The notes under the pieces were generated by a model. It was given only the letters and a program-made list of their open reading frames with translations. It was not told the DNA's origin and ran no database searches. From NCBI GenBank assembly GCA_029279965.1, contig JAJUHJ010000002.1, positions 1-61,058 on the forward strand: a stretch of 61,058 bases of DNA. The letters are read 5' to 3'. The DNA is from Phyllobacteriaceae bacterium (lineage in GTDB: Bacteria; Pseudomonadota; Alphaproteobacteria; Rhizobiales; Rhizobiaceae). Shown here piece after piece: positions 55,097 through 59,845 of the stretch; the stretch's first letter is position 1, and the number at the start of each line of letters is the position of its first letter. The position numbers were made by a program, and so were the translations under genes.

Positions 55097-58033
55097 TCAG
55101 TGCGCCTCATCCCAATTGTCGGCGGCGCGCGCGTCGACCTTCAGCGGCACCGACAGGTCGCGGGCGGGCCAGGCGGCCCCTTCCATTACTGTCCGAATAA
55201 GGGGGATTGCCCGTTCCACGGCGTCCTCGGGAGCCTCGAAGATCAGTTCGTCGTGCACCTGCAGAAGCATCTGGACTTCGCCAAGACCCGAATCCGCCAG
55301 CATTGCATCCATGCGCACCATGGCGCGGCGGATGATGTCCGCCGCCGAACCCTGGATCGGCGCATTGATGGCGGCGCGCTCGTTGAATGCGCGCACGGAA
55401 TGGTTCGATGAGCGGATTTCGGGATAATGCGCGCGTCGGCCGAAGACCGTCTCCACATAACCGTTCTCTCGGCAGAATGCCTTGGTGCGTTCCATATAGT
55501 CCCGGATTCCCGGAAAACGCTCGAAATAGCGCTTGATGTAACTTCCCGCCTCCTCGCGCGGAATGGCAAGCTGGTTGGCAAGGCCGAAGGCTGAAATTCC
55601 ATAGATGATACCGAAATTGATCGCCTTGGCGCGCCGGCGCACCTCGCCCGGCATTCCTTCAACCGGCACCCCGAACATCTCCGAGGCCGTCATGGCATGA
55701 ATGTCCAGCCCCTCGGCGAATGCCTGTTTCAGTTGCGGAATATCGGCCACATGGGCGAGGACGCGCAGCTCGATCTGGCTGTAATCGGCGGAAATCAGCT
55801 TACGTCCGGGCGCGGCGATGAACGCGGTGCGAATCTTGCGCCCTTCGGCCGTGCGCACAGGGATGTTCTGCAGGTTCGGCTCGGAGGAAGACAGCCGCCC
55901 CGTCGTTGTCGACGCCAGCGAATAGGAGGTGTGCACCCGTCCTGTCTGCGGATGGATATAGCCCGGAAGCGCGTCGGTATAGGTGGATTTGAGCTTCGTC
56001 ACCTGCCGCCAATCGACGATCTTGCGTGGCAGTTCATGGCCAGCCGCCGCCAGCTCCTCCAGCACCTGTGCAGAGGTGGACCACTGGCCGGATTTTGTCT
56101 TGGCGCCACCGGGCAACCCCATGCGGCCGAAAAGGATCTCGCCCAATTGCTTGGGTGAACCGATGGTGAAACGCCCGCCCGCGAGCGCATAAATTTCCTC
56201 TTCCATCGCCGCTGCGCTTTGAGCGAAATCGCCGGACATGCGCGACAGGATTTGCCGGTCGACCGTGATGCCGCGATGCTCCATGCGGCAAATGACGGAG
56301 ACCATCGGCCGCTCCAACCTTTCATAAACGGAGACCAGACCCCGCGCGGCAAGCTGCGGCTTGAGCACCTTCCAGAGCCGGAGCGTGATGTCGGCGTCTT
56401 CGGCCGCATAGGTGGACGCGCGTTCCAGATCCACCATGTCGAACGTGACGCGCGAGCGGCCTGAACCAGTCAGCTCCTTGTAGGAAAGCGGCGTATGGCC
56501 AAGCCAACGTTCCGCCAGCGCGTCCATGCCGTGCGCCTGTGTGCCCGCTTCCAGCACATAGGAGATGAGCATGGTGTCGTCATAGGGGGCGATCTCGATG
56601 CCGTGCCGATAGAGCAGGAGCCAATCGTATTTCAGGTTCTGTGCGACTTTCAGCACCGACGGATCCTGCAGCACCGGGCGCATGAGCGCCAGCGCTTCCT
56701 CCAAGCCGATCTGCCCGTCGAGCAGCCCGCCTCCCAGAAGATCGGTCGCGCCGGCTTTGTGGGAGAGTGGAACATAGGCCGCGCGGCCCGGTGCCGTGGC
56801 AAGAGCGATGCCGCAAAGCTCCGCCTGCATCGGGTCGAGCGAAGTCGTTTCCGTGTCTATGGCCAGGAGTCCCGTCTCGAGCGCCTCGGCCATCCACTGG
56901 TTGAGCGTTTCTGCGTCGCGGATGCAGACATAGCGCGAATGGTCGAATGTCTCGGCGGAGGCCGCTTCGGCAATCTTGCGGGCCAGCTTTTCCGGCGTAT
57001 CCGCGTCATCGGCGCGGGCGGGCGCCACTTCGCCTTCTGCGCCTGGCTCATCCAGGCCGGAGGCCGGTACGGTAAGGTCCGGCCCGTGCGCAGCCCCAAC
57101 TGCCGGCACCTCCACGTGGGCGGTTTCGATGGCGGCTGCGTCAGTCCCGGTGGCTTCTGCCACGCGCCGCGTGAGCGATGAGAACTCCATCGCTTTCAGG
57201 AAAGCGATCAGCTTGGGCCCGTTCGCCGAATCCAGCGCAAGCGTGTCGAGGCCGCGATCCACGGGAACATCGTTTTTCAGCCGCACGAGCTCGCGCGACA
57301 AACGCGCCTTTTCCGCGTGTTCCATGAGATTTTCGCGGCGCTTGTTCTGCTTGATCTCATGGGCGCGGGCAAGCAGCGTGTCGAGATCGCCATACTCCGC
57401 CAGAAGCTGGGCCGCCGTCTTGGGTCCGATCCCCGGCACACCAGGCACATTATCGATCGAATCCCCCGTCAATGCCTGCAGGTCGATCATCTTTTCCGGC
57501 GCGACGCCCCATTTCTCGATCACCTCCGGCACGCCAATCTCGCGGTCCTTCATCGGATCGTACATGGACACGCACGGGCCGACGAGTTGCATCAGATCCT
57601 TGTCGGAAGAGACGATGGTTGCATCTCCCCCAGCCTCGACCGCCATCCGCGCATAGGTGGCGATCAGATCGTCCGCCTCAAAGCCTTCCATCTCGATGCA
57701 CGGCACGTCGAAGGCGCGCGTCGCTTCGCGGATGAGACCGAACTGCGGGATGAGGTCCTCGGGCGGTTCGGTGCGGTTGGCCTTGTATTCGGGATAGAGC
57801 TCGTTGCGGAACGTTTTGGAAGAATAGTCGAAAATGACGGCGAAATGGGTCGGAATCACACCTGCTTCCGTGTTGCGCGCATCGCGCAGAAGCTTCCACA
57901 GCATGTTGCAGAAGCCGGACACGGCGCCGACAGGAAGCCCGTCGGATTTCCGCTTGAGAGGGGGAAGGGCGTGATAGGCGCGGAAGATATAGCCCGAGCC
58001 GTCAACGAGGAAGAGATGATCGCCTTTTTTCAT
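55097..58033 (-). CDS. polA: DNA polymerase I
   Basis: 978-residue polymerase with three domains: N-terminal 5'-3' exonuclease (LFLVDGSGYIFRAYHAL, DDLIATYA), a 3'-5' proofreading exonuclease with LLAIDTETTSLDPMQA that keeps the catalytic acidic pair, and the polymerase palm and fingers (DYSQIELRVLAHVAD, RRRAKAINFGIIYGISAFGL, LLQVHDELIFEAPE). Functions in Okazaki-fragment maturation and excision repair. ATG start at 58033. Divergent from the candidate sRNA and 393 bp from gnd. Confidence 0.97.
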   Translation of the reverse strand: MKKGDHLFLVDGSGYIFRAYHALPPLKRKSDGLPVGAVSGFCNMLWKLLRDARNTEAGVIPTHFAVIFDYSSKTFRNELYPEYKANRTEPPEDLIPQFGLIREATRAFDVPCIEMEGFEADDLIATYARMAVEAGGDATIVSSDKDLMQLVGPCVSMYDPMKDREIGVPEVIEKWGVAPEKMIDLQALTGDSIDNVPGVPGIGPKTAAQLLAEYGDLDTLLARAHEIKQNKRRENLMEHAEKARLSRELVRLKNDVPVDRGLDTLALDSANGPKLIAFLKAMEFSSLTRRVAEATGTDAAAIETAHVEVPAVGAAHGPDLTVPASGLDEPGAEGEVAPARADDADTPEKLARKIAEAASAETFDHSRYVCIRDAETLNQWMAEALETGLLAIDTETTSLDPMQAELCGIALATAPGRAAYVPLSHKAGATDLLGGGLLDGQIGLEEALALMRPVLQDPSVLKVAQNLKYDWLLLYRHGIEIAPYDDTMLISYVLEAGTQAHGMDALAERWLGHTPLSYKELTGSGRSRVTFDMVDLERASTYAAEDADITLRLWKVLKPQLAARGLVSVYERLERPMVSVICRMEHRGITVDRQILSRMSGDFAQSAAAMEEEIYALAGGRFTIGSPKQLGEILFGRMGLPGGAKTKSGQWSTSAQVLEELAAAGHELPRKIVDWRQVTKLKSTYTDALPGYIHPQTGRVHTSYSLASTTTGRLSSSEPNLQNIPVRTAEGRKIRTAFIAAPGRKLISADYSQIELRVLAHVADIPQLKQAFAEGLDIHAMTASEMFGVPVEGMPGEVRRRAKAINFGIIYGISAFGLANQLAIPREEAGSYIKRYFERFPGIRDYMERTKAFCRENGYVETVFGRRAHYPEIRSSNHSVRAFNERAAINAPIQGSAADIIRRAMVRMDAMLADSGLGEVQMLLQVHDELIFEAPEDAVERAIPLIRTVMEGAAWPARDLSVPLKVDARAADNWDEAH

Positions 58034-58226
58034 GGCTGAACGGGTAGCGTGGTGAGGCTCTCCTGTCCATGGTTAAGGCGGGGCCGGCTTGGTCCGCCGC
58101 TTCATTTCGGCACGACGTGGAACGCGAATCTATTTGAATCCGCTTCTGGAAACCGATCCCGGCTTTCGGTCTGAAGCGCCGCCCTTTGACAGCACCTCGA
58201 ATTCATCGATTCTGGTAACAGAAATA

Positions 58227-58242
58227 TTACGCAAACGTAATT
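58227..58242. promoter_or_regulatory. inverted repeat, candidate operator upstream of polA
   Basis: ATTACG and CGTAAT flank CAAA. Perfect 6+6 symmetry of an operator-like type, 194 bp from the polA start and just upstream of the candidate sRNA promoter. No regulator could be assigned. Confidence 0.3.
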
Positions 58243-58250
58243 TTGAGGCC

Positions 58251-58280
58251 CTTGAATAGCCATCTTACTGAACAACATAT
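58251..58280 (+). promoter_or_regulatory. candidate sigma-70 promoter for the small RNA
   Basis: CTTGAAT (58251-58257) with the -35-like TTGAAT at 58252-58257, 17 bases, then ACATAT at 58275-58280. This resembles the alphaproteobacterial CTTGAC-N17-CTATAT consensus. Transcription would start near 58287. Confidence 0.4.
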
Positions 58281-58286
58281 CGGGTA

Positions 58287-58425
58287 TCGGCAATATTCCG
58301 CCGAGTCCGGTAAGGCTCGTCCCCCGCCTGAACCGGAACAGCGGCAGCCTTCCCCCCTCTCCGGGCTGCCGCGCCTTTTGATGAATGGCCGCCGTGGCTC
58401 CCCTCCGCCACGGCGGCACTTCTTA
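58287..58425 (+). ncRNA. candidate small RNA with three C/U-loop hairpins (alpha-r14-like architecture)
   Basis: Three consecutive stem-loops on the plus strand: hairpin 1 (58306-58337, arms TCCGGT/ACCGGA plus AGGC/GCCT, loop TCGTCCCCC); hairpin 2 (58341-58372, 9-bp arms, loop with TCCCCCCTCTCC); hairpin 3 (58388-58417, 11-bp arms, loop TCCCCTCC) followed by ACTTCTTA. All three loops are C/U-rich and could pair with Shine-Dalgarno sequences, the design of rhizobial alpha-r14/NfeR1-type and Rhodobacter cuckoo-type RNAs. A promoter-like pair precedes it at the right distance (about 135-base transcript). It ends next to the gnd stop. Family membership is not certain, since the exact CCUCCUCCC motif is absent. 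Confidence 0.55.
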
Positions 58426-58426
58426 G

Positions 58427-59845
58427 TCAAGCCTGATGCCACTCCCCATGATGCCCCGTGCCTTCGCGGTCAACACGCTCAAACCCGTGTGCGCCGAAGA
58501 AATCGCGTTGTGCCTGGATCAGGTTGGCCGTGCCGCGGGCCCGGCGAAACGTGTCGAAATGAGCGAGCGCGGCAGACAACGCGGGAACCGGCAATCCTGC
58601 TTCCGCACTGCGCGCCACCACGCGGCGCAGATGCGATTGGCTCGATTCGATCAGCGCAGAGAAAGCCGGGGTCATCAGCAGGTTTTCGACCTCTCGCGCG
58701 TTGTCGAAAGCCTCCGCGATCTCGTCCAGAAACTGTGAGCGGATGATACAGCCTGCACGCCAGATGCGCGCCACCGTGCCGAGCGGAAGATTCCAGCCGA
58801 ACTCGCGAGAGGCAGCGGCCATCACGGCGAAGCCCTGTGCATAGGCGACAATCTTTCCCGCAAGCAAAGCCTGTTCGAGAACGGCAAGCGCCTGTTCGTC
58901 CGCCGGCTGGGCGCCCGGCTGAAGCGCGCCGAAACGCTGTTCGGCCGCTTCGCGTTCGTCCTTCATGGCGGAAAGGCTGCGCGCTGCCACGGCTGCCTCG
59001 ATTGCCGTGGCGGGGATGCCGAGCGACTGGGCTTCGATGGCAGACCAGCGGCCGGTGCCCTTTTGGCCGGCGCGGTCGAGGATAATCTCCACCATCGGCT
59101 TGCCGGTGCCACTGTCCGTGGCCGAAAGAACCGCCGCCGTGATCTCGATCAGATAGGAATTCAGGCGTCCCTCGTTCCACTTGGCGAAAACGGGCGCTAT
59201 CTCTCGTGCGGATAAGCCATGTCCGTCGCGCAGGATGCCGTAGACCTCGGCGATCATCTGCATATCCGCATATTCGATGCCGTTATGGATGGTCTTGACG
59301 AAATGGCCGGCCCCATCGGGTCCCAGCCAGGCCTGGCACGGCTCGCCTTCAAAGCGGGCGGCGATGGCCTCCAATACCGGCTCGATGCGGCGATAGGCTT
59401 CTTCCGGGCCGCCGACCATGATCGAGGGCCCGTGCCGTGCGCCCTCTTCACCGCCGGAAACTCCCATGCCGATAAAATGAGGGCCGCTGTCGGCAATTTC
59501 CGCCATGCGCCGGCGTGTGTCGCGGAAATTGGCGTTGCCGGCATCGATGATGATGTCGTCGCTTCCAAGCAGCGGGCGCAGAGCGGCGATCTGTTCGTCC
59601 ACCGCTGCGCCGGCCTGGACCATCACGATGATCGGCCGCGGGCGCTCGATTGCTACGGTCAGCGCCTCCAGGGATTTACAGGCCACGATGTTCCCGGCAA
59701 GCGGCCCGGCCTCCTCTACGAATGTGTCTATGCGTGTTGTCGTACGGTTGAAGACGGCGACGCGGAAGCCTTTCTCCGCGATATTCATCGCCAGATTGGC
59801 GCCCATCACTCCAAGGCCTATCAGGCCGATATCAGCTTTCTTCAT
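58427..59845 (-). CDS. gnd: 6-phosphogluconate dehydrogenase, decarboxylating
   Basis: NADP-dependent enzyme of the oxidative pentose phosphate pathway that converts 6-phosphogluconate to ribulose-5-phosphate. 472 residues, the long form. Rossmann motif IGLGVMGANLAMNIAEKGF, the signature GVSGGEEGARHGPSIMVGG, catalytic Lys in HFVKTIHNGIEYADMQMIAE, and C-terminal RAWRAGCIIRSQFL. ATG at 59845. Convergent with the candidate sRNA; 67 bp downstream of the fur/mur-type gene. Confidence 0.96.
   Translation of the reverse strand: MKKADIGLIGLGVMGANLAMNIAEKGFRVAVFNRTTTRIDTFVEEAGPLAGNIVACKSLEALTVAIERPRPIIVMVQAGAAVDEQIAALRPLLGSDDIIIDAGNANFRDTRRRMAEIADSGPHFIGMGVSGGEEGARHGPSIMVGGPEEAYRRIEPVLEAIAARFEGEPCQAWLGPDGAGHFVKTIHNGIEYADMQMIAEVYGILRDGHGLSAREIAPVFAKWNEGRLNSYLIEITAAVLSATDSGTGKPMVEIILDRAGQKGTGRWSAIEAQSLGIPATAIEAAVAARSLSAMKDEREAAEQRFGALQPGAQPADEQALAVLEQALLAGKIVAYAQGFAVMAAASREFGWNLPLGTVARIWRAGCIIRSQFLDEIAEAFDNAREVENLLMTPAFSALIESSQSHLRRVVARSAEAGLPVPALSAALAHFDTFRRARGTANLIQAQRDFFGAHGFERVDREGTGHHGEWHQA

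Follow-up and report, generated by a model that had tools for sequence, protein, structure and literature searches.

Introduction

The region between polA and gnd in the contig analysed here (JAJUHJ010000002.1 of a Phyllobacteriaceae bacterium, of which the whole stretch of 61,058 nucleotides forms the window) raises the question whether it contains a gene for a small regulatory RNA (sRNA) and, if so, to which family that gene belongs. An earlier note, made from the sequence letters, had proposed a plus-strand regulatory RNA with three anti-Shine-Dalgarno-like loops and described it either as a divergent member of the alpha-r14/NfeR1 or cuckoo RNAs or as a new relative. The alpha-r families were reportedly defined by del Val and colleagues in 2012. 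The present analysis establishes to which family the element belongs, that its base pairs covary, and that its promoter and gene neighbourhood are conserved; judged from its sequence, the element is a real plus-strand sRNA and an ordinary member of the already described rhizobial ar7 family.

This family (RF02342) includes SmrC7 of S. meliloti, also named sra03 and SmelC023, ReC06 of R. etli and C2 of A. tumefaciens. In the passages available of the papers cited here, SmrC7 has been on record as a polA neighbour since 2007, backed by Northern and RACE data, lies between polA and SMc02851 with RACE-mapped starts at 201679 and 201681, occurs as a transcript of 148-150 nt and as a processed form of 106 nt, is about 13-fold higher in nodules and has a predicted UlaR-like site (PMC2780559). 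It is listed on the plus strand also in PMC2573895 and PMC2873474. The table of PMC2245857, contrary to the other papers, puts sra03 on the polA strand; the same paper describes three hairpins and a 15-nt loop whose complement lies in the 5' region of a ZapA-family operon, smc03977-smc03976. The SmelC023 model has two conserved loops and a terminator, with the DNA polymerase I gene adjacent in all members except that of A. tumefaciens C58, and A. tumefaciens C2 was verified by deep sequencing and Northern blot (PMC3927594). RpoD and RpoH1/2 are listed for SmelC023 in a table of PMC7143759. Others have thus shown for S. meliloti that the homologue is transcribed, on which strand, with which ends and processing, and that its expression changes.

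Identification and family membership

Screening with Rfam gave a plus-strand match to ar7 of 99.1 bits (gathering 60, E 3.7e-18) that spans model positions 1-145 of 145. The Rfam boundaries predict an sRNA gene of 138 nt (Table 1), close to the length of about 135 nt proposed earlier. The polA-adjacent locus is the only ar7 copy in the source genome, and a search of a plasmid collection with the element gave no match. Hairpin order, loop motifs, terminator and polA adjacency are all shared with the ar7 family. Since the sRNA is already catalogued and the S. meliloti member of its family published, ar7, rather than a new family, is the appropriate annotation, and the proposal of a new relative was not borne out.

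Table 1. Features of the ar7 locus and its neighbours (positions in the window)
Feature	Position	Strand	Basis
polA, divergent upstream neighbour	55097..58033	-	NCBIfam DNA polymerase I above cut-off
Palindrome ATTACGCAAACGTAAT (TTAC-N6-GTAA), probable operator	58226..58241		Conservation
-35 element CTTGAA	58251..58256	+	Sequence; conserved in related loci
-10-like element ACATAT	58275..58280	+	Sequence; less conserved than -35
ar7 (SmrC7-type) sRNA gene	58285..58422	+	Rfam RF02342, 99.1 bits
Short 5' hairpin	58287..58304	+	Fold; 4 modelled pairs
Stem-loop 1	58306..58337	+	Loop TCGTCCCCC at 58317-58325; fold
Stem-loop 2	58341..58372	+	Loop TCCCCCCTCTCC at 58351-58362; fold
Stem-loop 3, terminator-like	58388..58417	+	Loop TCCCCTCC at 58399-58406; fold, terminator scan
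gnd, convergent downstream neighbour	58427..59845	-	NCBIfam gnd above cut-off

A divergent alpha-r14/NfeR1 or CcsR/cuckoo-type RNA would have the same plan, as ar14 likewise has three C/U-rich loops and CcsR1 hairpins with C-rich loops. With a permissive threshold the element matches ar14 (RF02344) at 32.7 bits (E 1e-4) and CcsR1 (RF02791) at 25.6 bits (E 2e-4); these sub-threshold scores show the resemblance in plan to be real, and the ar7 model built here also weakly recognises ar14 genes, at about 25-38 bits. Both scores are however far below gathering (58.8 and 65.3, respectively), and membership of either family was rejected on them, which concerns membership and not a possible distant ancestry shared by ar7 and ar14. 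The motif CCUCCUCCC, present in each of the three loops of NfeR1 according to the passages available of PMC10746234 and named by Rfam in its text on RF02791 for the CcsR1/cuckoo loops, does not occur in the sRNA sequence. Furthermore, two true ar14 genes above gathering were found on other contigs of the source genome, and the element differs from CcsR1 in being a single locus beside polA. The end-to-end ar7 match therefore accounts for the element despite the resemblance, and we consider this alternative very improbable: the likeness to alpha-r14 and cuckoo RNAs claimed before stands for the plan, not for membership.

Structure and covariation

On the plus strand the segment 58285-58427 (143 nt) folds at -71.5 kcal/mol; shuffled versions average -49.7 (z -5.1), and none of 200 folds as well. 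For the minus strand of the same segment z is -3.7, again with 0 of 200 shuffles as low, and folding alone therefore does not settle the strand; fold energy leans towards the plus strand without proving it. The three hairpins drawn in the earlier note were reproduced by folding, each with its loop. The short 5' hairpin had been missed there, as had the upstream palindrome.

Sequences of 29 out of 30 relatives were aligned, with L018 (near L017 and L019) left out. In this alignment, which was not structure-fitted and from which the structure itself was derived, 97.5% of cells pair, and in 24 of the 33 base pairs both sides have changed. The mean in shuffles is 9.0 such pairs, with 0 of 500 reaching 24, and slid partners give at most 8. 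For the 5' hairpin, 99.1% of cells are paired and two of the four modelled pairs have a compensatory change. A structure-fitted alignment (A3, 48 strong and 8 weak matches) was set aside as evidence. Covariation in relatives, which the earlier note had named as a check, is present, and its proposal of a plus-strand regulatory RNA is supported, with three C/U-rich loops on covarying stems.

GTCCCC is kept in the loop of stem-loop 1 in 28 of the 29 relatives, CCCTCTCC in that of stem-loop 2 in 27 and either CCTCC or CCCTC in that of stem-loop 3 in 27. Mean column identity is 0.92, 0.85 and 0.74 for the three loops versus 0.89 for the stems, hence conservation of the loops does not clearly exceed that of the stems, which speaks against a simple picture of conserved loops on free stems. 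The only other exact CCGGAGAGGG in the source genome lies on contig C136, inside an open frame, and is uninformative. Stem-loop 3 and its T-rich tail were picked up by a terminator scan, a call that is weak taken alone because one such site was listed and 0.6 are expected in shuffles. As in ar7, the element combines two conserved middle loops on covarying stems with a terminator hairpin.

Distribution and gene neighbourhood

An ar7 match was obtained in 32 of the 61 genomes searched. All 32 belong to the same family, of which 37 genomes were covered, whereas the 24 genomes from the order's other families gave none; 28 of the 61 pass the ar7 cut-off. These counts were obtained under strict filters, by which weak matches can be lost. 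The pattern of the two middle loops occurs in at least 118 stretches in genome_contigs, and model R1 (29 sequences) scores 86 of the 118 pattern matches listed at 67 bits or higher. The ar7 loci among the matches listed include Rhizobium, Agrobacterium, Mesorhizobium, Sinorhizobium/Ensifer, Neorhizobium, Chelativorans and kin.

The start codon of polA lies 252 nt upstream of the RNA start, in divergent orientation. The same arrangement is seen in 28 of 30 relatives and, among the matches listed, in 81 of the 86 ar7 loci of genome_contigs, where three of the five loci without polA had less than 600 nt of upstream sequence. The downstream neighbour differs: gnd here, versus a MarR-type regulator gene in the Rhizobiaceae ar7 members described in the passages available of PMC3927594.

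With stem-loop 3 ending 9 nt before the last base of the gnd stop codon, on the other strand, the site might be only a 3' terminator or untranslated region of gnd, or read-through from polA, with no separate sRNA gene. Yet gnd is downstream in just three of the 86 ar7 loci among the matches listed, the three named Chelativorans, all hairpins covary, the promoter is conserved, and for S. meliloti independent transcripts with mapped 5' ends have been published (PMC2780559, in part), which makes this reading extremely improbable. That the site is a short coding region is a negligible prospect, since the open frames that cross it on both strands (58243-58746 on the plus strand, 58102-58419 and 58227-58442 on the minus strand) and the small peptide predicted antisense to Brucella homologues (PMC3927594, in part) stand against match lengths in relatives of 135-151 nt, in steps not divisible by three, and substitutions that compensate as base pairs.

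Promoter and upstream palindrome

The promoter-like pair reported earlier, TTGAAT at 58252 and ACATAT, was found in the sequence; a generic sigma-70 scan found 0 promoters and did not score this pair. For comparison of upstream regions 109 of the 118 listed loci were kept, after removal of L149, L056 and L099, whose upstream sequence was short, and of six identical strings; the genome represented by both L027 and L082 is counted twice among them. Among these loci of the matches listed, CTTG[AT][AT] is found in 107 of 109 upstream regions and CTTGAA in 105.

The palindrome TTAC-N6-GTAA is found upstream, with at most one mismatch, in 103 of the 109 loci among the matches listed (89 perfect, 14 with one mismatch), occurrences that are not independent events because the loci are related; under base shuffling its rate is 1.0%. 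The six loci without it are L020, L029, L039, L057, L087 and L137. Two distances from the -35 element occur, again among the matches listed: 10-12 nt (76 loci) and 20-22 nt (27 loci). The two spacing classes differ by about one helical turn, and such a phased shift argues for a bound protein. The palindrome is probably the operator of a regulator.

It fits the classic LysR-type box TTA-N8-TAA as quoted in PMC7486931 (seen in part). We weigh evenly for and against the more specific proposal that ar7 would be the output of a particular regulator, possibly a LysR-type activator, which would bind TTAC-N6-GTAA at one of two positions one turn apart, depending on the lineage. If so, ar7 would act as an antisense RNA with several targets under the control of this regulator, in parallel to the LsrB-NfeR1 pair. 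VtlR/LsrB was rejected as candidate, its published box GCAT-N3-TG-N3-T, quoted in the same part of PMC7486931, not matching the palindrome. Other matches to the palindrome pattern in the source genome lie on contigs C49 and C158, where a quick look gave no pointer to a regulator. The stricter pattern GTTACNNANNTGTAAY has no match in the source genome, including the ar7 locus, where the box begins ATTAC. A literature search for the literal motif found no paper, which does not show it to be undescribed; the phased palindrome is the only part of the locus for which no description was found. The palindrome, lying phased before the promoter, could be used directly to identify the regulator of the ar7 family. 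This lead matters because the S. meliloti member rises in nodules while the passages available of the literature hold no proven target.

Proposed mechanism and candidate targets

The ar7 gene, which is chromosomal, would be read on the plus strand and in the direction leading away from polA. Its promoter is of the CTTGAA type and probably responds in addition to a regulator that binds TTAC-N6-GTAA, and the resulting RNA of about 138 nt would end at stem-loop 3. The C/U-rich loops of this RNA most likely base-pair with the G-rich ribosome binding sites of several mRNAs, whose translation would be lowered, perhaps independently of Hfq. The antisense mechanism, the targets and the regulator are what we infer. 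An anti-Shine-Dalgarno loop mechanism has been proven for the similarly built NfeR1 (PMC10746234, in part). Hfq co-immunoprecipitation did not detect SmrC7, a result taken by its authors to mean no binding or a very weak one, according to the passages available of PMC2848018. Taken as a whole, we are highly confident in the explanation of the locus as an ar7 gene with a CTTGAA promoter, a probable palindrome-binding regulator and loops that most likely block ribosome binding sites.

In three Sinorhizobium loci, none from S. meliloti (L121, L050 and L100), counting 42 nt from the model start leads into the loop of stem-loop 1, to its C run or one base inside it, so that, extrapolating across species, the published 106-nt form would begin inside that loop.

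Literature searches found no proven ar7 target. In the source genome, the start region of the DUF4164-zapA operon is the best of 341 genes for pairing with the whole tip of stem-loop 1, at -28.3 kcal/mol, a first rank that holds only with the closing stem of stem-loop 1 opened; when pairing is to the loop bases left unpaired in stem-loops 1, 2 and 3, the operon ranks 9th, 17th and 47th among these genes. Shuffled sites match the zapA energy in 1.8% of cases for stem-loop 1 and in 39% for stem-loop 2. Compared with 117 background genes, zapA start regions fall in the best 6% for stem-loop 1 in 15 of 16 same-genus cases and in 2 of 9 outside the genus. The zapA operon is, as a lead, a candidate target predicted from pairing energies, in agreement with the S. 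meliloti prediction.

Additional copies and linkage to ar14

One Chelativorans genome has a second ar7 copy (L149:1015-1142, G002:C1) whose score of 60.3 bits narrowly passes gathering; it has stem-loops 1 and 2, lacks the usual stem-loop 3 sequence, promoter and polA, and looks like a truncated duplicate. A weak ar7-like match in an Alphaproteobacteria MAG (L056:5979-6119), of 35.1 bits under model R1 and below Rfam gathering, has both middle loop motifs and no polA nearby. Another second match, likewise weak (L064:6819-6948, minus strand, 36.1 bits), lies just upstream of a full ar7, contains CGTCCCCT and CCCCCTCC stretches and is possibly a diverged tandem copy.

Among 14 loci chosen for extra or odd model matches, 11 have an ar14 gene about 3-5 kb downstream of ar7 (L065, L061, L067, L087, L099, L102, L118, L093, L121, L126 and L052), and four of these (L061, L065, L099 and L118) also an ar35 match. 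Such a linked ar7-ar14 sRNA cluster possibly hints at a common origin of ar7 and ar14.
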